Shown here one piece after another: positions 4,763-43,664 of a DNA stretch of 43,664 bases. The notes under the pieces were generated by a model. It saw only the letters and a program-made list of their open reading frames with translations, did not search any database and was not told where the DNA came from. The stretch comes from a virus: positions 1 to 43,664 of the IMG/VR virus record IMGVR_UViG_3300032087_001734, one strand, 5' to 3'. The position numbers and the translations under genes were made by a program. The first letter of the stretch is position 1. Each line of letters begins with the position of its first letter.

Positions 4763-5133
4763 AAAGTGGAACAGAATCACAACTCAAAGACAGTATTGTG
4801 GTTTACTTTCTCAACTCAATGGTAGCACTAGCGGCATTGGGTACAGTAATCTACACTATTATGATTCCAAACGTAGACGCAGGGCTAGTAGCCGTTGTAT
4901 CATCTATCTCTACGTTGATTGGTAAGACAGTTCTTGACATTATGATGTCTCAGTCTGGTGCTGAGAAAGAAGACCCTATGACAAGCGTAGCTAAAGAAAT
5001 GCTAGACTTGTTGCGTATTAAGGGTGCTGAGAACGACCCATACCACCTTGATATTACAAAAGACAATGTTAAGATTAATAAAGGTAGCACGGTACTAAAT
5101 ACTGACCGTGACATCTTCGAGGCAGGAGAGTAA
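4759..5133 (+). CDS. Two-TM membrane protein, possible second holin
   Basis: This 124-residue protein has membrane helices at about 13-35 (VVYFLNSMVALAALGTVIYT) and 41-62 (GLVAVVSSISTLIGKTVLDI). A charged cytoplasmic-type tail of about 60 residues follows. Two helices with a charged tail fit class II holin topology, but T7-like phages also carry unrelated membrane proteins at this position. It is translationally coupled to the upstream gene, and the next gene follows after 2 bases. Confidence 0.45.
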   Translation: MKSGTESQLKDSIVVYFLNSMVALAALGTVIYTIMIPNVDAGLVAVVSSISTLIGKTVLDIMMSQSGAEKEDPMTSVAKEMLDLLRIKGAENDPYHLDITKDNVKINKGSTVLNTDRDIFEAGE

Positions 5134-5135
5134 TT

Positions 5136-5693
5136 TTGGAACCGATGACTATGAGCATCGTTGGTGGTGCTTTACAGTCTGGACTTAGTATTCTAAGTGC
5201 TAACGCACGTAATGCGGCTATTAAGCGACAGGCTGTTGAAAACCAACGTGCAACGCAAACTATTCTAGGTCAGCGTAGAGATATTACTATTGCTAACCTA
5301 TATGACAAAGCACAAGAACTTGGCGCACAGGTTGGTGCAGAACTAACTAACTTAGGCTTTGAAGAACGCAAAGCTGGTGCTAAAGTAGCGGCACAGACTA
5401 TCGAGAGTAACATCTACGGTATGACCGCTATGAAGCTACAGAACCAAGTTGAAATGGATGCCGCTATGATGGAGGACAGTATTGTCCAGAAAGGCGAAGC
5501 GGCAATGAAAGATATTCAGATTGGACTATCTAACGCTAAATACGAATACGAGTCAGGTTCTTACCAGAACTCTATGAACTACGCAAGTGCAGTTAACCAG
5601 ATGCAATCTAGCTCTGAGATTATTACAGGTGCTATTGGCGCAGGTATTAGCGGAGCACAGTCTGGTTATAATTTAAGTAAAGCATTTGCATAA
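5136..5693 (+). CDS. Internal virion protein, T7 gp14-like
   Basis: This 185-residue protein sits where T7 has gp14, the core protein that is ejected and forms an outer-membrane channel (T7 gp14 is 196 residues). A weakly hydrophobic Gly/Ser/Ala-rich N-terminus (MSIVGGALQSGLSILSANA) is followed by a long helical region and a Gly-rich end. I chose the TTG at 5136 because GGAGAG lies 5 bases upstream; the ATG at 5145 in the same frame is the alternative. Assignment is by position, length and composition. Confidence 0.7.
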   Translation: MEPMTMSIVGGALQSGLSILSANARNAAIKRQAVENQRATQTILGQRRDITIANLYDKAQELGAQVGAELTNLGFEERKAGAKVAAQTIESNIYGMTAMKLQNQVEMDAAMMEDSIVQKGEAAMKDIQIGLSNAKYEYESGSYQNSMNYASAVNQMQSSSEIITGAIGAGISGAQSGYNLSKAFA

Positions 5694-5702
5694 GGAGGAG
5701 TA

Positions 5703-7742
5703 ATGCCACAATTACAATATGCGGCTTCGCAGGGCATGATTGATACTCGTCCTGTACAGTACAATGTAAAGCCTAACCTAAGCGGTGCTAGGGCAATTGA
5801 GAACTTACAGAAAGCCCTTCAGGGCGCGTCTCAGTTTGGCGCACAGATTGGTCAGGACAACTTCCAAGAAGAAGCACGTAACCTTGAACTAAAAGTAGCG
5901 CAGAACAAAGAAGCTTGGGCTGGTATGAGCTATGCAGAGCGTAAAAACTCTATGGCTACTCTACAGTCTGAGCTTGTAGACAAATACGGTGAGGATACTT
6001 ACTACGGTCGTCAGCTTCGTAACGCTGGCTCTAAAGCTTTTGCGGCATTTGGCGCACAGCTACAGGCACAGGGCGTAGAAGAAGAGTATCTTGACAACCT
6101 GACATCTCAGAACCGTGGTATGCTACAGTTCGCTACCGATTGGAATGCGGCTCAGAACCAAGAAGAGCGTAACAACCTCCTTAATAAGTTTAATGAAAAC
6201 TTTGTAGCTCCTTACGAAAACTTTGATGATAAATGGTCGCGTCAGCTATACAACAATGGATTGAAAAGCTTTGCCCAGTACCAAGAAGCATTCGGTAAAA
6301 CTGGTATAGCTATTGCTGACGAAGCGGCTCTATCTTCTGTACTTGACTCAGCGGCTACTGCTGTATCTATGTATGGTACTGTAGATGCTGACTTGTATGG
6401 TGAGATGGTAGGTAAGCTGTCACAGATTTCTAACTTTGAAGAGAACAAGTCTAAGTACCTTACAAACCTTGGTAACCAGATTATCATGGGTATTGTAAAC
6501 TCAGCTAACGAAGCACCACGTACTTGGGAAAATGCTATTAACTTTGAGAACAAGCTTGCGGCATTTGCTAAAGTTGACCCTCGTGTTACTAACTCAGACG
6601 CTTACAAATCAGCTATGACTGCTGTACGTGGCTTTAAGTCTACTGCTAATACTCAAGACATTGCTTCACTACAGGCTCTTGTGCAGAATGACCGAGCTAA
6701 ACCTGAAGAAGTATCAATGCTATCATCTGCTCTTGTAGCTCGTGGTGCAATTACTCAGGAAGTAGCAGACAACATGGACTTCTTGAAGTCTGAGCGTATG
6801 ATTAACAAAAATGTTACTGCTGAAGCTTCTGAATATTACGTAGGTGGGGATATAGAGTCTCTACATGACCTAGTTAGTCGCGGTAAAGGTGCAACTGTTA
6901 AGAAAGTAATTACTGACAACCTTAACCTCGAATTTGCTACTATGGCAGAAGAGAAAGACCCAGTAGAAGCAATGACTGCTATTATGACTAAGGTTGCTGA
7001 ATATAAAGCAATGGGCTTTGATGTAGGTAGTATTGATGCTATTGACGCGGTACTCTCTGCTCCAAGTAACGGTGGCTTACAGACTGACCAAGATGCACAG
7101 AACTTTGTTGTGGCAATGAAGACAGCTATTGATAATGGCTACCAATCCTCTGCTATTACAGACCGAGCTATTGGTGACTACGTTGTATTGAAAGCGTGGA
7201 CTAAACTAGGCGTACAGGATATGGCTGGTAAGTATCAGTCGTGGAAGACTTCTGGTGCTCGTGTAGCTGATGCTGATGTAATGGAAGCTCTTGATGCTAT
7301 CATTGACCAAGATTGGACATTTGCTGAAGGTGTTGAGAAGAATAACTACCAACAGTTTAAATCAGCTCTTGCCGCTCCAATCCGTGCCGCTCTAAAAGCT
7401 GGCGTAGCTCTTGATGACATCAAAGATGAGTGGGATGATGCTATTTACGCTAATTATTTTGAAGCAGACCCATTCTGGGGTGGCGGTGGTCGTATCCTAG
7501 TACCAAAAGTAGGAAGGATTAATGACAAAGATGCGTACAATACAATTGCAGAGCATTTTGGTAGCGACTCTACTGTGCTTCCTGTCGATATTCTCAGTCC
7601 AAAAGGTAAATGGATGGTACTTCCAGCAGACGGAAGTGAACCACAGCTATACGACTTTGAGTACATGGAGTTCTTGGCGAAGACACGTATTGCTCCTACA
7701 CCTGAACAGCTTGAGAAGTACAAAGCAGGAGGATATAACTAA
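5703..7742 (+). CDS. Internal virion protein, T7 gp15-like
   Basis: This 679-residue protein follows the gp14-like gene with a strong aggagg site. T7 gp15 is 747 residues and forms part of the ejected trans-periplasmic tube. The sequence is almost wholly helical and rich in Ala, Gln and Asn, with no membrane segment or enzyme motif. Its N-terminus (QLQYAASQGMIDTRPVQYN) is of a type seen in core proteins of related phages. Order, size and composition support the call. Confidence 0.75.
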   Translation: MPQLQYAASQGMIDTRPVQYNVKPNLSGARAIENLQKALQGASQFGAQIGQDNFQEEARNLELKVAQNKEAWAGMSYAERKNSMATLQSELVDKYGEDTYYGRQLRNAGSKAFAAFGAQLQAQGVEEEYLDNLTSQNRGMLQFATDWNAAQNQEERNNLLNKFNENFVAPYENFDDKWSRQLYNNGLKSFAQYQEAFGKTGIAIADEAALSSVLDSAATAVSMYGTVDADLYGEMVGKLSQISNFEENKSKYLTNLGNQIIMGIVNSANEAPRTWENAINFENKLAAFAKVDPRVTNSDAYKSAMTAVRGFKSTANTQDIASLQALVQNDRAKPEEVSMLSSALVARGAITQEVADNMDFLKSERMINKNVTAEASEYYVGGDIESLHDLVSRGKGATVKKVITDNLNLEFATMAEEKDPVEAMTAIMTKVAEYKAMGFDVGSIDAIDAVLSAPSNGGLQTDQDAQNFVVAMKTAIDNGYQSSAITDRAIGDYVVLKAWTKLGVQDMAGKYQSWKTSGARVADADVMEALDAIIDQDWTFAEGVEKNNYQQFKSALAAPIRAALKAGVALDDIKDEWDDAIYANYFEADPFWGGGGRILVPKVGRINDKDAYNTIAEHFGSDSTVLPVDILSPKGKWMVLPADGSEPQLYDFEYMEFLAKTRIAPTPEQLEKYKAGGYN

Positions 7743-12155: not shown

Positions 12156-12217
12156 GGCTTCTCTCAGGCGTTTTAACGGCATTAGGTAGGCTACCCTACT
12201 AGGTGACGTTAGAACGT

Positions 12218-12236
12218 CTCTCAGAGGCTCTCAGAG
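12218..12236 (+). repeat. Tandem CTCTCAGAG repeats before terL
   Basis: Two exact copies of CTCTCAGAG at 12218-12226 and 12228-12236 have 10-bp spacing and near-dyad symmetry. A third exact copy lies inside terL at 13180-13188. They fall in the 95-base gap between the terminase genes. A role is unknown. Confidence 0.5.
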
Positions 12237-12250
12237 CGTTAAGGAGACGT

Positions 12251-13948
12251 ATGACACAAGACGAAATTAAATTAGCAATTACAGACTTTAAGGTATTCCT
12301 AAAATACACATGGGAACACCTACGACTACCACCTCCTACTAGGATGCAATACTACATTGCTGACTACTTACAGGAAGGTCACAAGCGTTCACAGCTTGAG
12401 GCATTACGTGGTATCGGTAAAACATGGATTACAGGTGCATTTGTAGCATGGCGACTACTCCGTAATCCCAATGAGAAGATACTGATTGTCTCACAATCGG
12501 GTAGTCACTCAGACAACATCGCCATGTTCATTAGGAAACTAATTGATACAATGCCTATCCTAGAGCATTTACAACCACGAGCTGACCAGCGTAGCTCCGT
12601 TATCGCATTCGATGTGAACGGTGCAGAGGTATCGGTACAGCCGTCTGTAAAATCTCTAGGTATTACATCCCAGTTACAGGGTAACCGTGCCTCTCTACTT
12701 ATATCCGATGACGTAGAGGGTCAGCAGAATAGTGCGACAGAGAAGCGCAGACAAGACCTGCTGAACCAAGTAGCCGAATATGAGGCAATTCTTCAGACTA
12801 CTGACGATGCACAGATACTTGTACTGGGTACTCCCCAAACAAGCGAATCAATATACAACCGATTACGCGATAAAGGCTACGTAACTCGTATATATCCTGC
12901 TAGGTATCCAGATGATGTTTCTGCTTATAGTGGATGTCTTGCGGATTATCTATTAGAGGATATGGCTAAAGACCCTAGCCTTGTAAACAAGACAACTGAC
13001 TCACGTTTCAGTGACGAGGACTTGTTACAGAGGGAGTTGAGTTATGGACGTAGTGGTTTTAAACTACAGTTCATGCTTGATACTACACTTAGCGATGCAG
13101 AGAAGTACCCACTCAAGACAAAAGACTTGATAGTTACAGACCTGACTGCTAAGGATGCCCCTACAAAGCTCGTATGGAGCTCTCAGAGCCGCGATAGCAT
13201 CCACGATATACCCAACGTAGGGTTTACTGGAGATACGCTTCAGAGGCCGTCTGTGCAGGAAGCATACGGTGAGTACGAGGGTAGTATACTAGCTATTGAC
13301 CCTAGTGGTCGTGGTAAGGATGAGATGGGTTGGTGTATAGTCAACCATTTGCTTGGTAAAGTATTCATTCCTGCCTTTGGTGGTATGCACGGAGGTTACG
13401 TACAAGAGAACCTAGTGTTCCTAGCTGAGAAAGCAAAGGAATTCAATGTAAATAAGGTTGTAATTGAGAGTAACTTTGGTGACGGTATGTTTAACTCACT
13501 ACTAACACCTGTCCTCAATGCTATCTATCCTTGTGCAATGGAAGAGGTGAGAAGTAATATACAGAAAGAAAAGCGTATTATAGACACCTTAGAACCATTG
13601 ATGAACCAGCATAGGCTTGTATTTGATTACACAGCTTTAAAGGACGATGTAGCTTACGGATTGAGTGAGCCTAAGAACATATACTACAGCCTAGCGTACC
13701 AGCTTACACACATTACACATGAACGTGGAGCTTTGGTGCATGACGATAGGCTTGACGTATTAGCTTTAGGCGTACAGTTCTGGAATGACTACGGTATCTT
13801 GAAGCAGAATAGTGACCATGCTCTGAATATCTATAAGAAGAAGCAGGTAGAAGACGAATTGAAGCGTAGAGCTAACGTCTTTAGGAGTATGAACATGAAG
13901 AAATCCAAGGGTAATGTAGCTACTAAACGGCTAAAATCATTCAATTAG
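12251..13948 (+). CDS. terL: Large terminase subunit (ATPase-nuclease), T7 gp19-like
   Basis: This 565-residue packaging motor is close to T7 gp19 (586). It has a Walker A-like motif RGIGKTW at residues 53-59, a Walker B region around LLISDDVEGQ, and a coupling-type motif (ILVLGTPQT). A C-terminal RNase H-fold nuclease follows, with acidic residues in AIDPSGRGKDEMGW, VVIESNFGDGMF and HDDRLDVLALG. I chose ATG 12251 because AAGGAG at 12241-12246 precedes it closely; an in-frame GTG at 12203 would overlap the repeats and lacks a good site. No late gene follows. Confidence 0.95.
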   Translation: MTQDEIKLAITDFKVFLKYTWEHLRLPPPTRMQYYIADYLQEGHKRSQLEALRGIGKTWITGAFVAWRLLRNPNEKILIVSQSGSHSDNIAMFIRKLIDTMPILEHLQPRADQRSSVIAFDVNGAEVSVQPSVKSLGITSQLQGNRASLLISDDVEGQQNSATEKRRQDLLNQVAEYEAILQTTDDAQILVLGTPQTSESIYNRLRDKGYVTRIYPARYPDDVSAYSGCLADYLLEDMAKDPSLVNKTTDSRFSDEDLLQRELSYGRSGFKLQFMLDTTLSDAEKYPLKTKDLIVTDLTAKDAPTKLVWSSQSRDSIHDIPNVGFTGDTLQRPSVQEAYGEYEGSILAIDPSGRGKDEMGWCIVNHLLGKVFIPAFGGMHGGYVQENLVFLAEKAKEFNVNKVVIESNFGDGMFNSLLTPVLNAIYPCAMEEVRSNIQKEKRIIDTLEPLMNQHRLVFDYTALKDDVAYGLSEPKNIYYSLAYQLTHITHERGALVHDDRLDVLALGVQFWNDYGILKQNSDHALNIYKKKQVEDELKRRANVFRSMNMKKSKGNVATKRLKSFN

Positions 13949-14025
13949 TAAAACGTAGTAGTGGTGGGGCTTGTAGCCTATTTTAAAAGATAAGACTATC
14001 TAGGGGCGAAGATAACTTTAATATA

Positions 14026-14073
14026 TCTTTAAGATTCTTTAAGAGTCTTTAAGCATCTTTAAGCATCTTTAAG
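14026..14073 (+). repeat. Five TCTTTAAG octamers with exact 10-bp period
   Basis: Perfect TCTTTAAG copies start at 14026, 14036, 14046, 14056 and 14066, with 2-base spacers at, ag, ca, ca. An imperfect copy (ACTTTAAT) precedes them. All lie on one helical face. The array sits about 80 bases after terL, where T7 has short repeats beside its right terminal repeat. A related array lies at 23682-23759. It is a candidate genome-end, packaging or replication element. Confidence 0.85.
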
Positions 14074-14139
14074 CCACCACCTCTACTTCCCTTTCTTTAA
14101 TCGATGTCCGTAAAGCGGCATTGAGCCTACAACTGACAG

Positions 14140-14156
14140 GTTTGCTTTCGGCAAGC
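14140..14156 (+). terminator. Small hairpin downstream of terL
   Basis: GTTTGC, loop TTTCG, GCAAGC give a 6-bp stem with one G-T pair, without a clear T-run. It could be a weak late terminator or processing site. Nearby, tcgatgt occurs twice (14101 and 14161). Confidence 0.35.
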
Positions 14157-14245
14157 TTAGGTCGATGTTAGGTTTCCTTTCGCCTCGTTCTGGGGCAAGC
14201 TAAAAAATACTAAAAAAATCTGAATGGGTATCATCATAAATGCTT

Positions 14246-14545
14246 CGCGCGCAGTCCCCCGCACGCCTATGCACGCATGAGCACGCTCGCAGACGCATAA
14301 CGCGTACACACGCACGCCTACAGGCACACACACGCACACACATGAGCGCATCCGCACGCACCTACACGCACGCACGTAGGCACGCGAGAGGCGTTCTTTT
14401 TTGCACTCGAAGCCTCTTGACGCGACACGCACGCACACGCCTACGCGATACGCGAGCACGCCTACGCATACACACGCGAGCACACACACGGGCACGCACG
14501 CTAGCGCGAACGACCACGCGAGGGGAATTTTTTTTGCACGCTACA
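14246..14545. other. C/A-rich alternating purine-pyrimidine tract (Z-DNA-prone)
   Basis: About 300 bases are dominated on the + strand by CA, CG and AC steps (repeated GCACGC and ACACGC), with very little T. Strictly alternating purine-pyrimidine runs include 14300-14317 and 14324-14344. Two similar blocks interrupt it (14383-14417 and 14516-14548), each with a cacgcgag start, a T-tract, TGCAC and an AAGCC-like end. Open frames exist on both strands but look like composition artefacts. It lies between terL and the early promoter, inside the inferred genome-end region. Nothing in it matches a gene. Confidence 0.8.
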
Positions 14546-14600
14546 AGCCGCATGAATACTGGGCTTTTGAATTTATTTTAATTTTTTTTGCATCTGGGTG

Positions 14601-14629
14601 TTGACACTCAAAAGCAATGGGCGTAGCTT
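14601..14629 (+). promoter_or_regulatory. Candidate early host-type (sigma70) promoter with UP-like element
   Basis: A perfect -35 TTGACA (14601-14606) and a 17-base spacer lead to a weak -10 tagctt (14624-14629). The 40 bases upstream are very A/T-rich, resembling an rRNA UP element. It is positioned to start the early transcript, about 400 bases before the first early gene and 25-30 bases before the boxA. The -10 match is only three of six. Confidence 0.5.
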
Positions 14630-14663
14630 AGTAATGGCTGGAGCGGCAGACGCCCTTCACAAA

Positions 14664-14678
14664 CGCTCTTTAACAATT
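14664..14678 (+). promoter_or_regulatory. boxA-like antitermination element
   Basis: CGCTCTTTAACAATT contains the lambda/rRNA boxA consensus (CGCTCTTTA) and extends into the TTTAACAATT seen in gammaproteobacterial rRNA leaders. BoxA RNA binds NusB-S10 and makes RNA polymerase resistant to termination. It lies about 30 bases after the candidate early promoter start and before a hairpin. Confidence 0.6.
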
Positions 14679-14689
14679 CGGAATTAGTA

Positions 14690-14707
14690 GTGACCTGAAG
14701 GGGTCGC
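14690..14707 (+). promoter_or_regulatory. boxB-like hairpin after boxA
   Basis: GTGACC pairs with GGTCGC around the loop TGAAGG, giving a 6-bp stem with one G-T pair. The core CCTGAAG resembles lambda boxB (CCCTGAAGAAGGG), and it lies 11 bases after boxA. No N-like protein is evident, so similarity to a nut site may be partial or accidental. Confidence 0.35.
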
Positions 14708-15041
14708 TAGGTGACGCAAAGCAATGACGCGGGGTGTTCGCAAACGACAAGGCGCATGATTCTAGGTAATCAGCAAGGGGTCGGGAGGGGTAAACTCGAA
14801 GAGTGGCGCGGTGACTAGCGAAAGGATAGGGAGACGAAAATTCTGATAGAGCACAAGTTACACCCAAACCAAAGAGTTATCGGTTTTGTGGTTGGAACGC
14901 TACGTAACGCCAGACGGCTTGCGACTACAGCACACCCAACGATTGCATCCTAGACACTGCACACAAAATACACTCAGCGGTTATCGCAAAGCGTCTTAAT
15001 TCGAGGGCGTTTTGTCATAATCACAACAGGAGTAACACCTT

Positions 15042-15470
15042 ATGAACTACGCAAAAGCCGCTGTAATTTCAGACCAAGCTTTTGAAACCAACGATTGCAC
15101 AGTAAAAGCAGTAGCGATTGCTTGTAACGTTGCGTACCGTGTAGCACACAAAGCGATGGCAAACCAAGGTCGTAAAAACCGCCAAGGGTCATACGTACCT
15201 AACATTCACCGCGCTATTGAGTCGCTAGGTTACAAAGTGGAGCGAGTAGAGACTACCGCAAAAACTGTAACCACACTCGAAAAGGACTCGGCACTACGCA
15301 AAGGGCACTTTGTAGCCTACATCAGCCGCCACATTCTAGCCGTAAAAGACGGAGTAGTTGAGGATTGGTCGAAAGGTAGCCGCCGCCGTATCGAATCGGT
15401 TTATCGTGTAACGCCTAACGCGACTCGCAAAGAGCGCAAAGAGATGGCAAAAGCAGTCTTTAACAAATAA
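15042..15470 (+). CDS. C39/papain-like putative cysteine protease, first early gene
   Basis: This 142-residue protein has NDCTVKAVAIA (Cys19) near the start and GHFVAYISRHILAVKDGVVEDW (His97, Asp108) near residue 88-109. This is the Cys-His-Asp order of papain-fold C39-type peptidases. It also has the GRKNRQGSYVPNIHRAIESLG segment typical of a small phage family annotated as hypothetical. It has no signal peptide and a basic C-terminus. It is the first gene of the early transcript, with an aggag site. A host-takeover role is inference; the fold could be catalytically inactive. Confidence 0.6.
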   Translation: MNYAKAAVISDQAFETNDCTVKAVAIACNVAYRVAHKAMANQGRKNRQGSYVPNIHRAIESLGYKVERVETTAKTVTTLEKDSALRKGHFVAYISRHILAVKDGVVEDWSKGSRRRIESVYRVTPNATRKERKEMAKAVFNK

Positions 15471-17623: not shown

Positions 17624-17875
17624 ATGAACAATGTTAATATTTTGAATGCGATGATTGAGAACGGCAAAATCTGCAAAGTAGAATTTGTCAAGAAAGATGG
17701 AACAATTGGCACAGTGCATGGTCGTACAGGAGTATGGCGACACGCTAAAGGTCAACGTGTAACTAGCACAAAGCGTTATATCACGTTTTACGACTTCCAC
17801 AAGGGCTACCGTAGCGTTAACCGCAACACCATTGTGAGCGTTAACGGTTTGTCTCTCAAAATCAAGCATAAATGA
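17624..17875 (+). CDS. SH3-barrel-like small phage protein
   Basis: This 83-residue basic protein has CKVEFVKKDGTIGTVHGRTGV, then KRYITFYDFHKGYRSVNRNTI. The pattern is seen in phage proteins described as SH3 beta-barrel fold-containing. It may bind nucleic acid, but no function is established. It lies 17 bases after the previous gene with an aagga site. Confidence 0.6.
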   Translation: MNNVNILNAMIENGKICKVEFVKKDGTIGTVHGRTGVWRHAKGQRVTSTKRYITFYDFHKGYRSVNRNTIVSVNGLSLKIKHK

Positions 17876-21110: not shown

Positions 21111-23639
21111 GTGGAAGCAATTGACCGACAGCACGAGCTAGAGCTGAAAGCTAATGACTATTCATATAACCGATTGATGAAGGAGATTAACAACCGAGTA
21201 CAATCAGGTAACGCAGACGAGCTTGCTGAAGGTAAATTGATTCTTGTACACAGCATTGACGCAGTAGCAAACAAGCTAAAAGAATACTTTGACAAAGACA
21301 TTCGAGGTAAGATGAAGGCGGCTAGGGACTTGATAGCGATTGAGTTCTCTGAAGCTCCCAAAGACCTAGCCTTCATCATACTGGCAACGATTGTCCGAAG
21401 CATCAGTAAAGACGTACAAGTACCAACAATCTCTATTATCAAACAGCTTAACAGGTCGATTTACGACAGCATACTGGTAAGACGTTTGGACAGGGACGAG
21501 AACAACACCTTCGGAGCATACGTAGACAAGCGTTACAGCAAACGTAGCGAAGCTTGGCGTAACCGTGAGAAGATGAAGATTGTTAGACGACAGGCTTCGA
21601 TGAATGACCCAGACCTTAGTGATGTTACCACCTACCTTGGCGGTGTATTGCTTGACTTGGTTATCAAGAGCGGTATCAACATCATTGAGACTAAGGTAGT
21701 CTACAGCAAAGGTCGTAAGACACAGTATGTAGTCTACACAGACGAGTGTTTCAAGATGGTACTCCAGAGTCGTGAGCGTCTACTGAATGATTACAGAAAG
21801 TTTCCTATCCTACTTGCACCACCTAAAGAGTGGGAGGGTTTTGAGGGTAGTGGAGGTTACTACAACGGTGACATCTACAAACTACCCATTATAAAAGCCC
21901 GTACAGGCTCTAGGAAGCTTCTGAGAGGGTTTTTCGAGAAGACTGACCCAACCATACTGTACGACATTCTAAACACGCTACAGGCGACTCCTTGGCGTAT
22001 TAACAAGAGAGTCTACGATGTCATGGAAAAGATATTCAATGACAATATGGTTGACCCAGAGAGTCCACACTGTAACCCGCAATTGGTCGGAGGTTTACCC
22101 TACAATGGGACGCTAGAGCCTGAAGACTTTATCAACATTCACAACTACGGTGAGTTGCAGACTGAAGGTAAATACAAAGGGCTACCTGTAGACAAGAAGA
22201 TGATGCGTAAATACTTCAAAGACCTTGAAGACCAACGTGACATTTGCTTGACAAACACTGGTAAGGCTATTATGCTCAACCTTGTTATGTATAACGCTAA
22301 GGAGTATGTTGATGAAGATGAATTCTACTTCAGCTATCAATACGATTTCAGGGGCAGGATTTATCCTATCCAACAACACCTGCAACCACAGGGCAAAGGC
22401 GAGGTTAAAGCCTTGCTTGAGTTCAAGAACGGTTGTAGAATTGAAACAGAGGAGGAACTACGATGGTTCTACATTCATGGAGCGAATTGCTATGGATATG
22501 ACAAACTACCGTACTCAGAGCGTATTGCGAAAATGCAGGAAAAGACAGCGGAGATTAAAGCAGTCGCGTCAGACCCAATGGCGAACCGCCAGCTCTGGAA
22601 AGACGCAGACGAGCCATTCCTATACTTGGCATGGTGCTTTGAAATGGCTGACTATCTCGCTGACCCTATGGGTTTTGTTTCTCGCATCCCTATCGCTCTG
22701 GACGCAACCTGTAGCGGAATCCAAATCTACTCTGGGCTACTCAGAGATAGAGACGGAGCAGTTGCCGTTAACGTCATTGGGGATACCCGTCAGGACATCT
22801 ACCAACGAGTAGCGGATAAGGTCAACGAGTTCTTAGAGCAAGGTGATTATCCAAAGGTGTTGACATATACAACATCGGATGGTAAGGTACATGAAGAGTC
22901 TACTGTACCTATCGCAGACAGCTTGAAAGGTAAGATTACCAGAAAGCTAACGAAGCGTAACACAATGACTCAACCGTATTCTGTAACCAAATATGGTATG
23001 TACGAACAGCTTAAAGCTGAACTTACAGAAATGGAGTACAACAACAAGAAGTTTTGGGTAGGTGACCTTTGGGCGGTAGCCAAGCTACTTACAGACCTTA
23101 ACGACAGAGCTATTGCAGAAGTTGTTAAAGGGGCTAGGGTAGGGCAGGAATACTTGAAGGAGGTTACAGCAGAGGTAGTTAAGAAAGGCAACTGGGTATT
23201 TTACACAACGCCTATCACTGGCTTCCCTGTTCTCCAGAAGTTACACAAAACTGAGGCTGAGAGGGTAATTACACCAATCGGTAAGCTGACGATAAGACGC
23301 TCTATCAACGAGCTGAATCCTCAGAAGATGGTTAACGGTATTGCTCCTAACTACGTACACAGCCTAGATGCTACGCTCCTAGCGAGTACGGTATTGAAGC
23401 TTAGGGAGGATGGCTGTAAAGACTTCCACCTTATACACGACAGCTACGGAGTTCCAGTTAACCAAGTAGTTAACCTAAACAAACGAGTCAGGGAGGCTTT
23501 TATTGAACTGTTCTTAGAAGACCCATTGATGAAATTTATTCAACAGGTGCATCCAGAGGTTGACAAGCGACCACAGGATGTTATGATAAACACTCTGTAC
23601 TTAGGAGAGGTGGCTGATAGTAGTTATATCTTCAGCTAA
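21111..23639 (+). CDS. Single-subunit DNA-dependent RNA polymerase, T7 gp1-like
   Basis: This 842-residue enzyme (T7: 883) transcribes the middle and late phage genes. Catalytic residues align with T7: Asp531 in LDATCSGIQ, Lys615 and Tyr623 in TKRNTMTQPYS, and Asp777 in LIHDSYG. YQYDFRGRIYP lies near residue 410. It starts at GTG immediately after the preceding stop, with ggaggtag upstream, so translation is probably coupled. Its promoter specificity is not known; candidates are listed at 31883 and 37135. Confidence 0.97.
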   Translation: MEAIDRQHELELKANDYSYNRLMKEINNRVQSGNADELAEGKLILVHSIDAVANKLKEYFDKDIRGKMKAARDLIAIEFSEAPKDLAFIILATIVRSISKDVQVPTISIIKQLNRSIYDSILVRRLDRDENNTFGAYVDKRYSKRSEAWRNREKMKIVRRQASMNDPDLSDVTTYLGGVLLDLVIKSGINIIETKVVYSKGRKTQYVVYTDECFKMVLQSRERLLNDYRKFPILLAPPKEWEGFEGSGGYYNGDIYKLPIIKARTGSRKLLRGFFEKTDPTILYDILNTLQATPWRINKRVYDVMEKIFNDNMVDPESPHCNPQLVGGLPYNGTLEPEDFINIHNYGELQTEGKYKGLPVDKKMMRKYFKDLEDQRDICLTNTGKAIMLNLVMYNAKEYVDEDEFYFSYQYDFRGRIYPIQQHLQPQGKGEVKALLEFKNGCRIETEEELRWFYIHGANCYGYDKLPYSERIAKMQEKTAEIKAVASDPMANRQLWKDADEPFLYLAWCFEMADYLADPMGFVSRIPIALDATCSGIQIYSGLLRDRDGAVAVNVIGDTRQDIYQRVADKVNEFLEQGDYPKVLTYTTSDGKVHEESTVPIADSLKGKITRKLTKRNTMTQPYSVTKYGMYEQLKAELTEMEYNNKKFWVGDLWAVAKLLTDLNDRAIAEVVKGARVGQEYLKEVTAEVVKKGNWVFYTTPITGFPVLQKLHKTEAERVITPIGKLTIRRSINELNPQKMVNGIAPNYVHSLDATLLASTVLKLREDGCKDFHLIHDSYGVPVNQVVNLNKRVREAFIELFLEDPLMKFIQQVHPEVDKRPQDVMINTLYLGEVADSSYIFS

Positions 23640-23678
23640 TTTCAAAAGAACAGACATTCAAGAGTAAACCCGAAACAA

Positions 23679-23718
23679 GACTCTTAAAGAATTCTCTAAT
23701 ATTTAATTAGAGAGAGTC
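23679..23718 (+). terminator. AT-rich hairpin after RNA polymerase gene
   Basis: TCTCTAAT (23693-23700), loop ATTTA, ATTAGAGA form a perfect 8-bp stem. Outer arms GACTCT (23679-23684) and AGAGTC (23713-23718) can extend it. It could be an early terminator, an RNase III-type site or an origin structure. Confidence 0.5.
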
Positions 23719-23759
23719 TTAGTAGTAGTTATCTTAAAGACTCTTTAAGATGCTTAAAG
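23682..23759 (+). repeat. Second phased TCTTWAAG octamer array (origin candidate)
   Basis: TCTTAAAG at 23682 and 23732, TCTTTAAG at 23742 and GCTTAAAG at 23752 are all in one 10-bp register. Read on the other strand, the last three share the cat and agt spacers of the array at 14026-14073. The site is AT-rich and lies directly after the RNA polymerase gene, where T7 has its primary replication origin. Confidence 0.7.
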
Positions 23760-23778
23760 CCAACTAAAGGAGACTATC

Positions 23779-24420
23779 ATGGCTAAAATTCAAAAACCAT
23801 TTGCTGTTAAAGGCACAAACATCACTTCACCTAAAGGCTCTGCGCTATGGTGTAAGTTCAAAGAACCAGACACTAAGTTCAACGTGAAAGGTGAGTATTC
23901 AACAGAGGTTGTCTGCGACCCTAATGACCCTGCTGTACAAGCGTACATCGCCAAGCTTGAAGAGCTACGTGACATCGCTTACAACGAGACTATCGAGACT
24001 CTAGGGGCGGCTAAAGCCAAAGGTGTACGCAAAGCTGAAGTGTACAAGGAAGAGATTGACCAGAACGGTAACGAAACTGGTAACATCATCTTCAAGTACA
24101 AACTGAAAGACCTTACTGACCGTCAGGCACGAGGCGATTCAGCAGAGATTGTTGTAGTCGATGCCAAGAAAAACAACCTTGGTGCTCAAGCTCCGCTTGT
24201 AGGTAACGGCTCAACTATCCGTGTTGTAAGCTACGCTAACCCTTACTTCATGGCTTCGCAGAAAGTTGTTGGTATCAGCCACATCTGGTCTAAGATGCAG
24301 ATTATCGAGCTGAACGAATACTCAGGCGGTGGCGGTGACGACTTCGATGAAGAGGACGGCTTCGAGGATGCACCTGCACCATTCGCTACTGACGACTTCG
24401 ATAGCGAAGACGACTTTTAA
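23779..24420 (+). CDS. Single-stranded DNA-binding protein, T7 gp2.5-like
   Basis: This 213-residue protein has an OB-fold-type body (SALWCKFKEPDTKFNVKGEYS, near residues 20-40). A very acidic C-terminal tail ends in phenylalanine (DDFDSEDDF), the hallmark of T7 gp2.5 (232 residues). The tail recruits polymerase and helicase. It begins the replication block after the intergenic repeats, with an aaaggag site, and overlaps the next gene by one base. Confidence 0.92.
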   Translation: MAKIQKPFAVKGTNITSPKGSALWCKFKEPDTKFNVKGEYSTEVVCDPNDPAVQAYIAKLEELRDIAYNETIETLGAAKAKGVRKAEVYKEEIDQNGNETGNIIFKYKLKDLTDRQARGDSAEIVVVDAKKNNLGAQAPLVGNGSTIRVVSYANPYFMASQKVVGISHIWSKMQIIELNEYSGGGGDDFDEEDGFEDAPAPFATDDFDSEDDF

Positions 24421-26602: not shown

Positions 26603-26759
26603 ACTTAAACGCGGCGAAAAGTATTGGACTTACTACCGAGACAAGGTATACCAGACTACTTGGGAGAATGATTTTACTGACAATGACCGAGTACGTGAGG
26701 GGCGTGTGTTCAAAACAAAGAAAGAAGCAGAAGCCGCTTTAAAAGAAAAGACATTCTAG
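26592..26759 (+). CDS. 55-residue basic protein (GTG start)
   Basis: The GTG at 26592 lies 5 bases after AGGAGG (26581-26586) inside the end of the primase-helicase gene. The product TSKLKRGEKYWTYYRDKVYQ is basic with Trp/Tyr clusters and ends in a Lys/Glu helix, suggesting nucleic-acid contact. No family is recognised. Confidence 0.55.
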   Translation: MTSKLKRGEKYWTYYRDKVYQTTWENDFTDNDRVREGRVFKTKKEAEAALKEKTF

Positions 26760-26785: not shown

Positions 26786-28636
26786 ATGATAGCAGTATTC
26801 GACATCGAAACTAACGGACTGTATGACCAGACCGACAAACTGCACTGTATCTCCATCAAGGTTGATGATGAGCCTACCTATGTGTATACATCGCACTGGG
26901 TTGAAGGTGCTGACGGTGACCTAGACGAAGCATACCAGATTCTTAATGACGCTGATTTGCTTGTAGGTCACAACATCATCAACTTCGATATACCTACGCT
27001 TGCAAAGCTAGGGTACGACCTGACTCATAAGGCAGTACACGATACTATCATTATGTCTCGCTTGACGTACCCTAATATCTTGTTGCAAGACGCTAACCGT
27101 AAATCAGTACCACCAAAGCTCAAAGGCTCTCACAGCCTGAAGGCTTGGGGCTACCGACTACGTAAGCTCAAAGGCGAGTTCGGTGCAGAGGAAGAACAGT
27201 GGGCGTTGCTCACACCAGCGATGGTTTCCTATTGCCGACAGGATACAGAAGTAACAGCAAAACTTTACGAGAAGCTACTGACTCGTAATATACCTGACGA
27301 AGCTATCAAACTTGAACAGGACTTTGCTAGGATTATCAGTAGACAGGAGAAATATGGTGTCTACTTCGACATGGAGAAAGCAAAGGCTCTCCACATTGAA
27401 CTCATTGAAGAGGTGGAACGAGCCGAGGAAAAGCTACTGGAAACCTTTACTCCTCTTAAAACGTGGACACCGAAGCCGTATCCTAAAATTCCGTTTAAAA
27501 AGGATGGAAGTAAGTCACAAGTATTACTTACTCAGGAAACGCTTGGATGCCATTACAATGATAAGGGCGAGTGGGGATACTACAAGGAAGTCCAGTTTAA
27601 TCCAAGTAGCCGTCAACACATTGCACGTTGGTTGTCAGAGGTCTACGGGTGGAAGCCTACTGAGTATACCGAAAAGGGAACGCCAATCATCAATGAGGCT
27701 ACGCTTGAGTCCCTTGAGTTTGAGGAAGGTAAAATACTGGCTCACTATTTCAACGTAGTTAAACTAAAAGGACAGCTTGCTGACGGTAAGAACGCATGGC
27801 TGAAGATGGTGGCTAAAGATGGTCGTATACATGGTCGCGTCAATACTCTTGGTGCTGTCTCTAGGCGTTGCACTCACTCAAATCCTAACATGGCTCAAGT
27901 CCCTTCTGGACGAGCATACAAAGGGCACGAGGCACGAGCGTTATTTAGTGTACCAACTGGTAAAAAGCTGGTCGGTTGTGACGCTGATGGTCTTGAGCTT
28001 AGAACTCTCAGTCATTATATGGCTAGGTTCGATGGTGGAAGGTATGCTGACGCAGTAGATAAAGGTGATAAGGATGCAGGTACAGACATTCATACACTCA
28101 ACCAAAAGAGTGCTGGCTTACCTACAAGGGATGATGCAAAGACTTTCATATATGCCTTCCTCTACGGAGCTGGAGACGGTAAGATTGGAAGCATTATTGG
28201 AGGAAGCGCAGATGCAGGTAAGAAACTCAAAGACAAGTTCTTCAAGAAAATACCTGCAATCAAGAGTCTTGTTGACCAAGTTGCAAAAGTGTATAGCGAA
28301 ACTGGTACACTGAAGGCACTTGACGGCAACCCTTACCATATCCGTTCAAGCCATAGTGCTTTGAACACACTCTTGCAGGGAGCAGGAGCATTGGTTATGA
28401 AATACTACCTTGTATTCCTTGACCGAAACCTTCAGCAGAAGTTTACCGCTGGTAAGCAGTTTGAGTTTGTGCTCAACGTACACGATGAGGTACAGATTGA
28501 GTGTGACGAGAGCATAGCTGAAGAGGTTGCACGCATTTGTGAATACACATTTGACGATGTAACCAAATACTTAAATTTTAGAATACCCCTAAGAGGCACG
28601 GCTGACATAGGCGACTCTTGGGCAGAAACACACTAA
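26786..28636 (+). CDS. DNA polymerase I family, T7 gp5-like
   Basis: This 616-residue replicative polymerase (T7: 704) has a 3'-5' exonuclease domain starting FDIETNGL (Asp6, Glu8). The polymerase domain has motif A CDADGLELR (Asp399), motif B KTFIYAFLYGAGDGKIG and motif C VHDEVQIEC (Asp567). The thumb region between TFTPLKTW and VQFNPSSR is shorter than in T7, so the thioredoxin-binding loop may be reduced. An aaggag site precedes the ATG. Confidence 0.96.
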   Translation: MIAVFDIETNGLYDQTDKLHCISIKVDDEPTYVYTSHWVEGADGDLDEAYQILNDADLLVGHNIINFDIPTLAKLGYDLTHKAVHDTIIMSRLTYPNILLQDANRKSVPPKLKGSHSLKAWGYRLRKLKGEFGAEEEQWALLTPAMVSYCRQDTEVTAKLYEKLLTRNIPDEAIKLEQDFARIISRQEKYGVYFDMEKAKALHIELIEEVERAEEKLLETFTPLKTWTPKPYPKIPFKKDGSKSQVLLTQETLGCHYNDKGEWGYYKEVQFNPSSRQHIARWLSEVYGWKPTEYTEKGTPIINEATLESLEFEEGKILAHYFNVVKLKGQLADGKNAWLKMVAKDGRIHGRVNTLGAVSRRCTHSNPNMAQVPSGRAYKGHEARALFSVPTGKKLVGCDADGLELRTLSHYMARFDGGRYADAVDKGDKDAGTDIHTLNQKSAGLPTRDDAKTFIYAFLYGAGDGKIGSIIGGSADAGKKLKDKFFKKIPAIKSLVDQVAKVYSETGTLKALDGNPYHIRSSHSALNTLLQGAGALVMKYYLVFLDRNLQQKFTAGKQFEFVLNVHDEVQIECDESIAEEVARICEYTFDDVTKYLNFRIPLRGTADIGDSWAETH

Positions 28637-31953: not shown

Positions 31954-32538
31954 ATGGATATTGCAATCGAACTAGAAAAAATCTTTAACAAAGACAAGCC
32001 AAAAGACGTATGGGATGACCTAGTGCCTATCGTAAAGACTGACACTACAATTCACGCTTATGTATCAGATGAGATTGGCTCACCAGATACTTACGACAAG
32101 CTGTGCCATACACTAGATACTGCTGAAGATGGTGACAATGTACTACTTCATCTGAATACAGGTGGTGGATACATCGACTCAGCATTCAAGATTATTGCGT
32201 CAATTAAACGTAGTCGCGCCAAAGTAACGGCACGATTAACTGGCACAGTAGCTTCTGCTGGCACAATTATCGCTCTTAGCTGTGACGACCTAGAGGTTGA
32301 AGACTTCACCTCATTTATGATTCACAACTACTCAGGCGGTGCTGGTGGCAAAGGTCACGAGATTATTGATTACGTCAACTTCTCTGACAAAAACATTACA
32401 GCGACATTCAAGAAGCTCTATGCTGGCTTCCTGACTCCTCGTGAACTTACTGCTGTAATCAAAGGTAAAGATATGTGGATGGGTACTGAGGAAGTCCAGA
32501 AGCGTTGGGAAAAAATGAAGGAGACAGCTAATGGCTAA
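31954..32538 (+). CDS. ClpP-like serine protease
   Basis: This 194-residue protein has a ClpP/crotonase-fold with a plausible triad: Ser101 in TGTVASAGTII, His124 in FMIHNYSGG and Asp173 in GKDMWMGTEEV. LHLNTGGGYIDSAF (about residues 65-78) is the oxyanion-hole strand region. T7 has no such enzyme and needs no prohead protease, so its target (host or phage) is unclear. It follows tandem promoter-like elements and overlaps the next gene by 8 bases. Confidence 0.85.
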   Translation: MDIAIELEKIFNKDKPKDVWDDLVPIVKTDTTIHAYVSDEIGSPDTYDKLCHTLDTAEDGDNVLLHLNTGGGYIDSAFKIIASIKRSRAKVTARLTGTVASAGTIIALSCDDLEVEDFTSFMIHNYSGGAGGKGHEIIDYVNFSDKNITATFKKLYAGFLTPRELTAVIKGKDMWMGTEEVQKRWEKMKETANG

Positions 32539-33301
32539 AATTCTAATTATCGACATTGAGACTTCACCAATTATGGGTAAGGTCTGGTCACTATGGAAAC
32601 AAAACGTATCACTCGACCAGATTGAAGAAGATTGGTACATCATGTCTTACTCGGCTAAATGGCTAGGCGAAGATGACGTATTCTACGATGACTGCCGTGA
32701 GAATATCGGTAACGACATTGAGTTGCTATCAGGTATTCACTCACTGCTTGAGAAAGCTGACATCGTAGTAGCACACAACGGAGCTAAGTTTGACGTACCT
32801 AAAATCAATGCACGATTGATTCTCCAAGGCTTCAAACCACCAGCACCTTACAAAGTAGTTGATACAGTAAAGGTTGCTAAGAAGACTTTTGCATTTACAT
32901 CTAACAAGCTGGCATACCTCACAGGCGAACTGTGTGAAGACCAGAAGCTAGACCATGCTAAGTTTGCTGGCTGGAAACTCTGGAATGAGTGTATGGATGG
33001 CAACGAAGAAGCTTGGGACGAGATGATGGAATACAACATGATGGACGTAATTAGTCTTGAAGAGTTGTACCTGAAACTACTACCTTGGACTGACAACCAT
33101 CCAAACGTAACTGCTCAAGAAGACCATGAGACTATGTGCTGTCCTAAGTGTAGTTCACATAAGATTGTTAAGCGTGGTTTCCACTACACTAACAAAGGCA
33201 AGTATCAGCGTTACCAGTGTAATGACTGTGGTGGTTGGTCTTCAGAGACATACACAATCAATACTAAAGAAAAACGTAAGTCGCTACTGGCTTCACGATA
33301 A
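32531..33301 (+). CDS. RNase H-like 3'-5' exonuclease with C-terminal zinc ribbon
   Basis: In this 256-residue protein, residues 1-190 form a DEDD-type exonuclease: IIDIETSP (Asp, Glu), VVAHNGAKFDVP (Asp) and YNMMDVISLEELY (Asp). Residues 200-240 form a zinc ribbon (CCPKCSSH, then YQCNDCGGWSS), which resembles transposase/transcription-factor ribbons and may choose DNA or RNA targets. It is coupled to the ClpP-like gene. Substrate and role are unknown. Confidence 0.75.
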   Translation: MAKILIIDIETSPIMGKVWSLWKQNVSLDQIEEDWYIMSYSAKWLGEDDVFYDDCRENIGNDIELLSGIHSLLEKADIVVAHNGAKFDVPKINARLILQGFKPPAPYKVVDTVKVAKKTFAFTSNKLAYLTGELCEDQKLDHAKFAGWKLWNECMDGNEEAWDEMMEYNMMDVISLEELYLKLLPWTDNHPNVTAQEDHETMCCPKCSSHKIVKRGFHYTNKGKYQRYQCNDCGGWSSETYTINTKEKRKSLLASR

Positions 33302-34529: not shown

Positions 34530-34578
34530 GATAGTTACTTTTAATGAAAAGACTATCTTAGATAGCTTATAGCTATCT
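34530..34578 (+). promoter_or_regulatory. Two adjacent AT-rich dyads before the head genes
   Basis: GATAGT (34530-34535) and ACTATC (34552-34557) enclose an inner CTTTT/AAAAG pairing. Immediately after it, AGATAGCT (34560-34567), TAT, AGCTATCT (34571-34578) form a perfect dyad. Together with the upstream hairpin they make a regulatory-looking boundary between the replication and head genes. Confidence 0.5.
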
Positions 34579-34600
34579 ATTGACTTTAAAGGAGTCTCTT

Positions 34601-38288: not shown

Positions 38289-38364
38289 ACGTTTGTAGCT
38301 CAGTGGATAGAGCAACGGTTTGCGATACCGTAGGTCACAGGTTCAAATCCTGTCGAGCGTACCA
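38289..38364 (+). tRNA. tRNA-Arg (anticodon GCG)
   Basis: This 76-nt gene has a full cloverleaf. Acceptor ACGTTTG/CGAGCGT has two G-T pairs, and the D-arm is GCTC-AGTGGATA-GAGC. Anticodon stem ACGGT/ACCGT holds loop TTGCGAT (anticodon 38322-38324), and the T-arm is ACAGG-TTCAAAT-CCTGT. The discriminator is A and CCA is encoded. It would read CGC and CGT; CGT is used heavily in the structural genes. GCG is unusual because bacteria normally read CGN with ACG (inosine). It lies 218 bases upstream of the major capsid gene. Confidence 0.92.
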
Positions 38365-42391: not shown

Positions 42392-43664
42392 ATGGAAACT
42401 CCTTCACGACATTCATTTACCCTTAACGGTTCTACGCGAGTCTTTCCGATTCCATCACCGATTAAGGGCGATAACTATTGTCGATTGGAAGTTGACGGCA
42501 CAATTATTAACGACCGTACTAAGTACGACATCGTAAACAACTCTATTGTCTTCGTGGACGCGGCTGATGTACCTGCGGGTAGTCAGCTTGACGTTCTCGT
42601 TGTACAATCAGAGGAAGCCATTGGTCAGCTAACAATCACAACAAACATTGATATTGTTGCGTCTAATATTGCAGACGTAAACACAACTGCTGATGACATT
42701 TCTAATGTTAACACTGTAGCAGGTAACATCACTGACGTTAACCGTGTAGCTACTTCAGCAGACAACTTAGACCGTGTACATACATCTATCGGCAACATTG
42801 ACCGAGTTGATACGTCTATCGACAAGCTAGACCGAGTGTACACTTCGATTGATAAATTAGACCGTGTACATACTTCTGTTGACAATCTTGACCGTGTTCA
42901 CACATCTATTGCTAATGTAGACCGTGTAAATACATCTATTGCGGCAGTTGATACTGTAGCGGCTGACCTTAATGAGCCTGTCTCTGAAATCGAGACTGTA
43001 TCTGGTAGCATTACCAACGTAAACACAGTCGGTACAAACATTGCTAATGTTAACACTGTAGCTGGTATTGATGCTAATGTAACAACTGTAGCAAACAACG
43101 ATACTAACGTAACTACTGTTGCAACTGATATTGCTAATGTTAATACAACTGCTGGCTCTATTGCAAATGTTAATACAACCGCAGGTTCAATCGCAAACGT
43201 AAACACAGTAGCCACTGATATTGCTAACGTAAATACTACCGCTACTAATATTGCTAACGTAAACACTGTTGCTGGTATCGATACCGATGTAACTACTGTT
43301 GCTACCAATAATGCTAACGTATCTACCGTTGCAGGTATCTCTAGCAATGTATCTACCGTTGCTGGTATTTCAGGTAATGTAACTACTGTTGCTACCAATA
43401 ATGCTAACGTAACATCTGTAGCAGACAATATGACTGGTCTGAATACTATTGTTACAAATATGACAGAAATCCTTAATGCTGATACTAATGCGGCTACCGC
43501 TACTACTAAAGCATCTGAGGCTTCTGCTTCGGCTGTGTCTGCGGCTCAGTCTGCGGCATCAGCGGCAAGTGTACTAGATAACTTTGATGACCGTTACCTT
43601 GGTGCTAAAACAGCAGACCCTTCTGTAGATAACGATGGTGACCCTCTAGTAGTAGGTGCATTGT
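42392..43664 (+). CDS. Tail fibre protein, N-terminal part (3' end outside window)
   Basis: 424 codons are open to the right edge. Residues 1-80 form a beta-rich attachment module (RHSFTLNGSTRVFPIPSP, then LEVDGTIINDRTKYDIVNN), a shorter analogue of the T7 gp17 N-terminus that binds the tail. Residues 93-356 are decapeptide repeats (see the repeat entry), then an Ala/Ser coil (ASEASASAVSAAQSAASAA) and FDDRYLGAKT, a common fibre linker. It lies directly after gp12 with a gaggt site. It probably continues into the open frame at window position 1. Confidence 0.88.
   Translation, partial: METPSRHSFTLNGSTRVFPIPSPIKGDNYCRLEVDGTIINDRTKYDIVNNSIVFVDAADVPAGSQLDVLVVQSEEAIGQLTITTNIDIVASNIADVNTTADDISNVNTVAGNITDVNRVATSADNLDRVHTSIGNIDRVDTSIDKLDRVYTSIDKLDRVHTSVDNLDRVHTSIANVDRVNTSIAAVDTVAADLNEPVSEIETVSGSITNVNTVGTNIANVNTVAGIDANVTTVANNDTNVTTVATDIANVNTTAGSIANVNTTAGSIANVNTVATDIANVNTTATNIANVNTVAGIDTDVTTVATNNANVSTVAGISSNVSTVAGISGNVTTVATNNANVTSVADNMTGLNTIVTNMTEILNADTNAATATTKASEASASAVSAAQSAASAASVLDNFDDRYLGAKTADPSVDNDGDPLVVGAL
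42668..43459 (+). repeat. About 25 decapeptide (30-bp) repeats in tail fibre
   Basis: Ten repeats (consensus I-x-N-L/V-D-R-V-H-T-S in the middle of this block; the first units are closer to I-x-N-V-N-T-V-A-x-N) run from residue 93 to 192. A 14-residue break (LNEPVSEIETVSGS) follows. Fifteen repeats (I-A-N-V-N/T-T-V-A-x-x) run from residue 207 to 356. Identical peptides are written with different synonymous codons. The pattern suggests a trimeric beta-helix or coiled shaft. Confidence 0.85.

Follow-up and report, generated by a model that had tools for sequence, protein, structure and literature searches.

Bacteriophage T7 is the textbook case of transcription-primed replication. Its secondary origins lie at phiOL, phi6.5, phi13, and phiOR, and to our knowledge no established rule for which T7 promoters become origins goes further than "promoter plus A+T-rich DNA." At the primary origin after gene 1, replication is described as starting from transcripts of the phage RNA polymerase (RNAP) (PMC5997990), and this origin is credited with an A/T-rich cluster (cited in PMC12839067). 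In T3, the annotated primary origin (5682-5758) follows promoter phi1.05, starts with the word CTTTAAG, continues into an A+T-rich centre, and ends in CTTTAAGaacatCTTTAAG (CTTTAAGAACATCTTTAAG) plus three bases.

In this work, we analyzed the whole virus record IMGVR_UViG_3300032087_001734 (43,664 bases; hereafter the window), a T7-like phage with two arrays of the word CTTWAAG, one after the terminase large subunit gene terL (array 1) and the other after the RNAP gene (array 2). We assign a probability of about 0.6 to the reading that these arrays are cis elements of T7-type transcription-primed replication origins, with origin activity and protein binding being what we infer from the sequence. 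The best reading of their positions is that array 2 would belong to the primary origin after RNAP and array 1 to a right-end (phiOR-type) origin.

Genome and Gene Landmarks

T7-type PHROG matches were found for the genes of a single-subunit RNAP (PHROG 414), a T7-type primase-helicase (PHROG 239), a DNA polymerase (PHROG 17), and a Gp2.5-like single-strand DNA binding protein (SSB; PHROG 112), as well as for connector, capsid, tail tube, and terminase genes. The contig is permuted, with terL followed by the inferred genome end and then by the early genes (Table 1). The RNAP is only ~27% identical to that of T7, and the nearest isolate RNAP genes are ~33% identical or less, so that the clade is known here from metagenomes only.

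No Rep-like initiator gene was found among the 20 main proteins (PHROGs) and 10 mostly unassigned ones (Pfam), with the small open reading frames (ORFs) covered partly. For candidates that may bind the box, Pfam gave no convincing DNA-binding family among the window ORFs, the only exception being a weak WYL_2 match at 17624-17872 that is under the Pfam cut-off. The DNA polymerase gene (26786-28636) itself also matches the DNA polymerase exonuclease subunit family PHROG 403, as does a separate gene at 32531-33301 (E 1e-106). A tRNA-Arg (anticodon gcg; 38289-38364) is located between the scaffold-like gene and the capsid gene, and 30-bp repeats in up to six copies occur near the record end (42761-43413), probably within a tail-fibre gene.

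Table 1. Features of the window around the two arrays and at the promoter-like sites.
Feature	Position	Strand	Evidence or remark
terL, terminase large subunit gene	12203..13948	+	PHROG 38, E 1e-99
phiOR-like phage-RNAP promoter-like site	13980..14003	+	27.4 bits; inferred +1 ~14003
Array 1, five CTTTAAG boxes, 10-bp period	14026..14073	+	~+24 to +70 from inferred start
Terminal-repeat junction element CTAAAAAATACTAAAAAAATCTGAATGGGTA	14200..14230	+	Conserved in relatives
Single-subunit phage RNAP gene	21111..23639	+	PHROG 414, E 2e-181
phi1.1-like phage-RNAP promoter-like site	23639..23662	+	33.3 bits, best in window; inferred +1 ~23662
Array 2, proximal CTTAAAG box	23683..23689	+	~+21; C, T, T, A, A, G invariant, central W variable (nine-genome alignment)
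A+T-rich centre separating the two box blocks	23690..23732	.	23680-23762 within the 0.12% least stable windows
Array 2, distal block: CTTAAAG, CTTTAAG, CTTAAAG, 10-bp steps	23733..23759	+	~+71, +81, +91
Gp2.5-like SSB gene, right edge of the origin-like gap	23779..24420	+	PHROG 112, E 5e-24
Third strong promoter-like site, before the DNA polymerase gene	26736..26759	+	31.9 bits; without boxes
Fourth, weaker promoter-like site, phi6.5-like position	34537..34560	+	16.8 bits; upstream of connector gene region

Box Arrays and Promoter-Like Sites

The original prediction, made from the sequence of the window alone, described five exact octamers with a strict 10-bp period after terL. We found precisely this in array 1, where TCTTTAAG starts at 14026, 14036, 14046, 14056, and 14066 with the spacers at, ag, ca, and ca, and Tandem Repeats Finder independently detects the array with period 10. 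For the second group (23682-23759), the predicted register of 0, +50, +60, and +70 stood, with TCTTAAAG at 23682 and 23732, TCTTTAAG at 23742, and GCTTAAAG at 23752, and the opposite-strand spacers read ca/ag/at as claimed (cat/agt type). The octamer type needs a refinement: because the final copy in array 2 is missing its first T and the central W is T in some boxes and A in others, what both arrays share is the 7-mer CTTWAAG and not a full octamer. This word is nearly its own reverse complement. A common phase of the proximal and distal blocks of array 2 was also considered; the Rayleigh statistic shows no peak between periods 9 and 12.5, and we make no claim of it.

Within the window, TCTTWAAG occurs 25 times compared with 5.25 ± 2.5 expected (none of 100 shuffles reached 25), and six pairs of CTTWAAG lie exactly 10 bp apart (mean 0.005 and maximum 1 in 200 dinucleotide shuffles). 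A third array was not found anywhere in the 43.7-kb window; the random scatter of arrays through the genome that the original prediction had named as evidence against itself is thus not observed. Single matches to the word at 1256, 10016, 24547, and 26464 are intragenic and look like background.

A promoter matrix built from relatives only and scanned over the 43.7-kb window returned just four strong sites (Table 1), the next best having 6.1 bits. Each array starts ~20 bp downstream of one of these sites, in agreement with the suggestion of a common cis element with common neighbours at both locations. The promoter strength of the sites at 13980 and 23639 and their start sites (~14003 and ~23662) are predictions from sequence. 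The site at 26736 provides an internal control: it has no boxes and the downstream stability is ordinary (33rd percentile), and therefore the boxes are not simply part of every promoter. No exact box is present at the 34537 site; the stretch 34537-34600 contains, after this promoter-like site, a TAGATAGCTTATAGCTATCTA inverted repeat and CTTTAAAGGAG.

Comparison With T7 and T3

Array 2 fills the gap between the RNAP and SSB genes, and T7 has its primary origin at the corresponding place. Like that origin (phi1.1A/B plus an A+T-rich region), array 2 follows the RNAP gene, has a promoter-like site directly upstream, and is of very low stability, and the two share CTT(W)AAG words and a central TTAATTAGAGA stretch. 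Unlike in T7, the boxes of the window form two blocks and are stricter in both sequence and 10-bp phase, and the gene after the origin region is SSB instead of 1.1/1.2. The T3 primary origin has the same succession of promoter, box, and A+T-rich centre, with distal boxes at ~+78 and +90 (compared with ~+21 and +71/+81/+91 for array 2) and a looser spacing (14 bp for the first two and 12 bp for the last two). The boxes of T7 phi1.1B are at +7, +19, +29, and +76. The predicted link between array 2 and a T7-like primary origin is supported in that the box occupies this position in the annotated T3 origin as well as in T7 phi1.1B.

Additional boxes were found at phiOL of T7 (+11 and +61) and T3 (+16, +64, and +75) and at phiOR of T3 (+13 and +67), and no exact box at T7 phiOR and phi13. 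Array 1 resembles the T7/T3 phiOR region in being located between terL and the junction AAAAATCTGA-TG..TA|TC at a similar stability percentile, and differs in having five phased boxes where T7 phiOR has none that is exact. Several other T7-like phages (CRP-143, EcoP_F, Emajogi, pEp12, PMBT23, ICP3, LUZ100, Lau218, and HTVC168P) carry no box downstream of RNAP. Within 110 nt of annotated promoters, we counted 15 boxes in T7 (2.1 expected), including three that can be reached from both phi1.1A and phi1.1B, and 13 in T3 (1.9 expected); these counts were reached in none of 20,000 random placements. In both genomes, CTTWAAG ranks first among 24 control words, namely, the symmetric heptamers of the same composition including CTTWAAG itself.

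The boxes are not new to the clade of the window phage, as the T3 primary origin, T7 phi1.1B, and T7 phiOL carry CTTWAAG; the best reading is that they represent conserved symmetric boxes of T7-type transcription-primed origins that were expanded here into helically phased arrays. The original prediction knew of no described element of this exact form. This holds for the open-access literature searched, in which we found no description of the box in T7-type origins (an older one is possible), although T7 and T3 do contain the box. The arrays are also similar to iteron-type plasmid/phage origins, in which phased direct repeats adjoin an A+T-rich region, and differ from these in that the boxes are promoter-coupled, symmetric, and very short, and that no initiator gene was recognised among the proteins searched.

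Some of the T7 boxes abut ribosome-binding sites or start codons (phi9, phi10, phi17, and phi1.1B +76) and may belong to translation leaders. If this applied to the arrays, the boxes would aid expression of the next gene in the manner of the TTTAACTTTAAG leader of T7 gene 10, an explanation that could draw on the several T7 boxes located 8-33 nt upstream of start codons (mostly beside the ribosome-binding site) and on the location of array 2 at 20-90 nt upstream of the SSB gene. We consider it very unlikely, given that array 1 is followed by ~970 bp without a plausible gene and with the terminal-repeat junction in between, that the T7 phiOL boxes are ~460-510 nt from the next gene, and that it is not obvious what a leader would gain from multiplied, helically phased boxes. 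A box beside both a ribosome-binding site and a start codon was found in neither array, and the phiOL boxes and those of phi1.1B from +7 to +29 do not lie against such elements either.

Conservation Among Relatives and Other Viruses

CTTWAAG boxes are present in 20 of the 23 distinct RNAP-downstream stretches compared (55-100% RNAP identity), typically as a proximal block, an A+T-rich centre, and a distal block, followed by the SSB gene. In the first set of relatives, the RNAP-SSB gap contains 49 such boxes (12/12 genomes) vs. nine for the next control word; in the enlarged set of 23 stretches, there are 69 vs. 11 for the runner-up. The region after terL has 35 (12/20 genomes) vs. six. Neighbouring boxes in the first set are spaced by 10 bp (n = 38) or 11 bp (n = 7), with none at 1-9 or 12-19 bp, and the enlarged RNAP set has one spacing of 12 bp. 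After terL, 8 of the 20 relatives examined have no box. Two relatives with 72% RNAP identity have kept the promoter and are missing the array, and in phages with 41-43% RNAP identity, genes occupy the RNAP-SSB gap instead.

Across a nine-genome alignment, the proximal box reads C-T-T-N-A-A-G throughout with A or T as the central base, while its surroundings drift. Between the window and contig L001, the central base is flipped in two distal boxes with the arms kept. Copy number varies among relatives, with six exact copies after terL in L010. Regular box spacing can come from tandem duplication without selection, and short-period repeats expand readily, which would agree with this variable copy number. 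Yet neutral duplication near promoters without any function is extremely unlikely, as the core is conserved, is retained through central T/A flips, and turns up again at matching promoter positions in T7, T3, and distant contigs.

The post-RNAP and post-terL stretches of relatives both open with a conserved 24-mer of the type ACTTCAAAAGAAAAGACATTCTAG. The two sites are alike within about seven of ten genomes, yet differ between genomes; for example, TTGCGCATGAAAGCCCCCTATAGA in G005 has 24/24 identity between its two sites and CTAGCAAGGACTGTCTAGATAAA in G009 has 22/24. Such site pairs behave as expected for two putative promoters read by one co-evolving RNAP. In addition, the contig L001/G001 has two different single-subunit RNAP genes (239-2683 and 5003-7525; 38 and 88% identical to that of the window).

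Among IMG/VR contigs, three CTTTAAG at 10-bp steps were found in 38, compared with 11 for 12-bp steps and eight for the reversed word at 10 bp. T7-like terL, RNAP, or connector genes occur on at least 17 of these 38 fragments, compared with 2/11 and 0/8, respectively; the 38 contigs are partly related to each other, so these counts are not independent. Post-terL arrays are also found in the distant T7-like contigs L100, L093, L162, and L172. Furthermore, in three contigs, arrays follow a promoter-like site ~1 kb before the connector gene, where T7 has phi6.5. We also considered an array for a host protein: three TCTTTAAG at 10 bp were found in only eight stretches when 85,000 genomes of bacteria and archaea were searched, which speaks against a host element of wide distribution.

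Two other occurrences were observed in this search. A separate group of near-identical virus contigs (L090, L094, L095, L096, L101, and L105), in which no window-like RNAP or terL was detected, shares a design of a CTTTAAG block, an A+T-rich centre, and a second block. The 48-kb virus contig L097 has about ten TTCTTTAAGG-type copies at 10 bp (~12450-12500), with distant helicase and DNA polymerase matches and no terL or RNAP match.

Array 1 and the Genome End

The sequence AAAAATCTGAATGGGTA at 14214-14230 is identical to that directly before the annotated terminal repeat of T3 and nearly so to that of T7, which has AAAAATCTGAGTGACTA there; the terminal repeat of the window phage thus probably starts at 14231. 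The original prediction placed array 1 at the inferred genome end and suggested that the arrays could link replication start to end formation, with the short repeats beside the T7 terminal repeats as an analogue. The array is indeed near this end, but ~158 bp short of the predicted terminal repeat, behind the phiOR-like promoter-like site. A packaging or concatemer-processing signal equivalent to the T7 short repeats SRL/SRR would be consistent with its location between terL and the terminal-repeat junction, which is also seen in the distant L100, L162, and L172 (terL identity near 45%), and SRL/SRR of T7/T3 are likewise short repeated 7-mers near the terminal repeat. Their word is CCTAAAG, with copies mostly ~13 bp apart and spread along the repeat flank, whereas neither CCTAAAG nor CTTTAGG occurs in 13940-15050, and homology of array 1 to SRL/SRR was rejected. 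Moreover, of the two arrays, the one after the RNAP gene, at a distance of 9.6 kb, is better conserved, and the box is missing after terL in the 8 of 20 relatives mentioned above. A role in packaging is accordingly highly improbable, the link to end formation is not supported in the form proposed, and the T7 short repeats are not the best analogue. Because related contigs have arrays both after terL and at the phi6.5-like place, what the array positions have in common is better described as a putative phage-RNAP promoter located where T7 has an origin than as the genome end.

Other elements were observed in this region. Between array 1 and the junction (14075-14200), there are two or three imperfect copies of a TTAGGTCGATGTTAGGTTTCCTTTCG-like element that are also present in the homologous stretches of L010, L011, and L019 and are possibly a packaging signal. 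A low-complexity stretch rich in ACGC/CACG (14240-14500) follows shortly after the predicted start of the terminal repeat. At the start of the early region (14590-14690), a sigma70-like promoter TTGACA...TAGCTTAGTAAT is followed by CGCTCTTTAACAATTC, which resembles the boxA antitermination element of ribosomal operons.

DNA Stability and Curvature

Ranked from the least stable windows of each genome, array 2 is at 0.12%, compared with 0.22% for T7 phi1.1B and phiOL and 0.07% for T3 phi1.05, and array 1 is at 1.3%, compared with 1.5% for T7 phiOR and 2.7% for T3 phiOR. Intrinsic curvature was rejected as a common property, as the wedge model gave a high value for array 1 only (98th percentile, and ~65th-76th for array 2).

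These values raise the possibility of a pure DNA-melting element, for which low stability from A+T content and TpA steps alone would matter, with CTTWAAG as a convenient word and the 10-bp step resulting from duplication. With respect to stability, the array regions rank in the lowest 0.1-1.3% of the genome, similar to T7/T3, TpA-centred words open easily, and the variation in array copy number is also compatible with this explanation. We nevertheless regard it as unlikely, as none of the 23 other symmetric words with this composition is enriched to a similar degree, the CTT/AAG arms stay constant where spacers and the central base change, and the spacing of 10 or 11 bp holds between copies with different spacers and opposite W.

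Proposed Origin Model and Implications

For the preferred reading of the arrays as elements of T7-type origins, the evidence in the window phage consists of sequence, position, promoter coupling, conservation, low stability, and the presence of the box in T7 and T3. The genome has the T7-type set of RNAP, primase-helicase, DNA polymerase, and SSB genes, and both arrays have a promoter-like site upstream and easily melted DNA downstream of it, at places that correspond to the T7 primary origin after gene 1 and to phiOR by gene order and the terminal-repeat junction. At such an origin, the phage RNAP would start at the promoter ~20 bp upstream and transcribe into the box region, which is among the parts of the genome that are easiest to melt. 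The transcript may then stay paired or pass to the phage DNA polymerase as the leading-strand primer, and helicase and SSB would enter the opened region. Because CTTWAAG is near-palindromic, has a central base that flips between T and A with the arms kept, and is repeated at one-turn spacing, it most likely either serves as the site of a symmetric (dimeric) protein or provides flexible TpA hinges in phase. In either case, the boxes could bend the region or hold it open on one face and thereby mark these promoters, unlike others, as origins.

The original prediction also suggested that one protein binds both sites on one DNA face, and the arrays may be compatible with this. A more specific version, in which CTTWAAG is the site of an undiscovered origin-recognition protein of phage or host origin, probably a symmetric dimer, that chooses the origin promoters, is possible but tentative.

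If this more specific version is true, more than a promoter and A+T content would be needed to define T7-type origins. Because CTTWAAG is enriched downstream of promoters in T7 and T3, stands at both ends of the annotated T3 origin, and is strictly phased in an uncultured clade, it represents a concrete candidate for the missing origin-choosing signal in T7-type phages.
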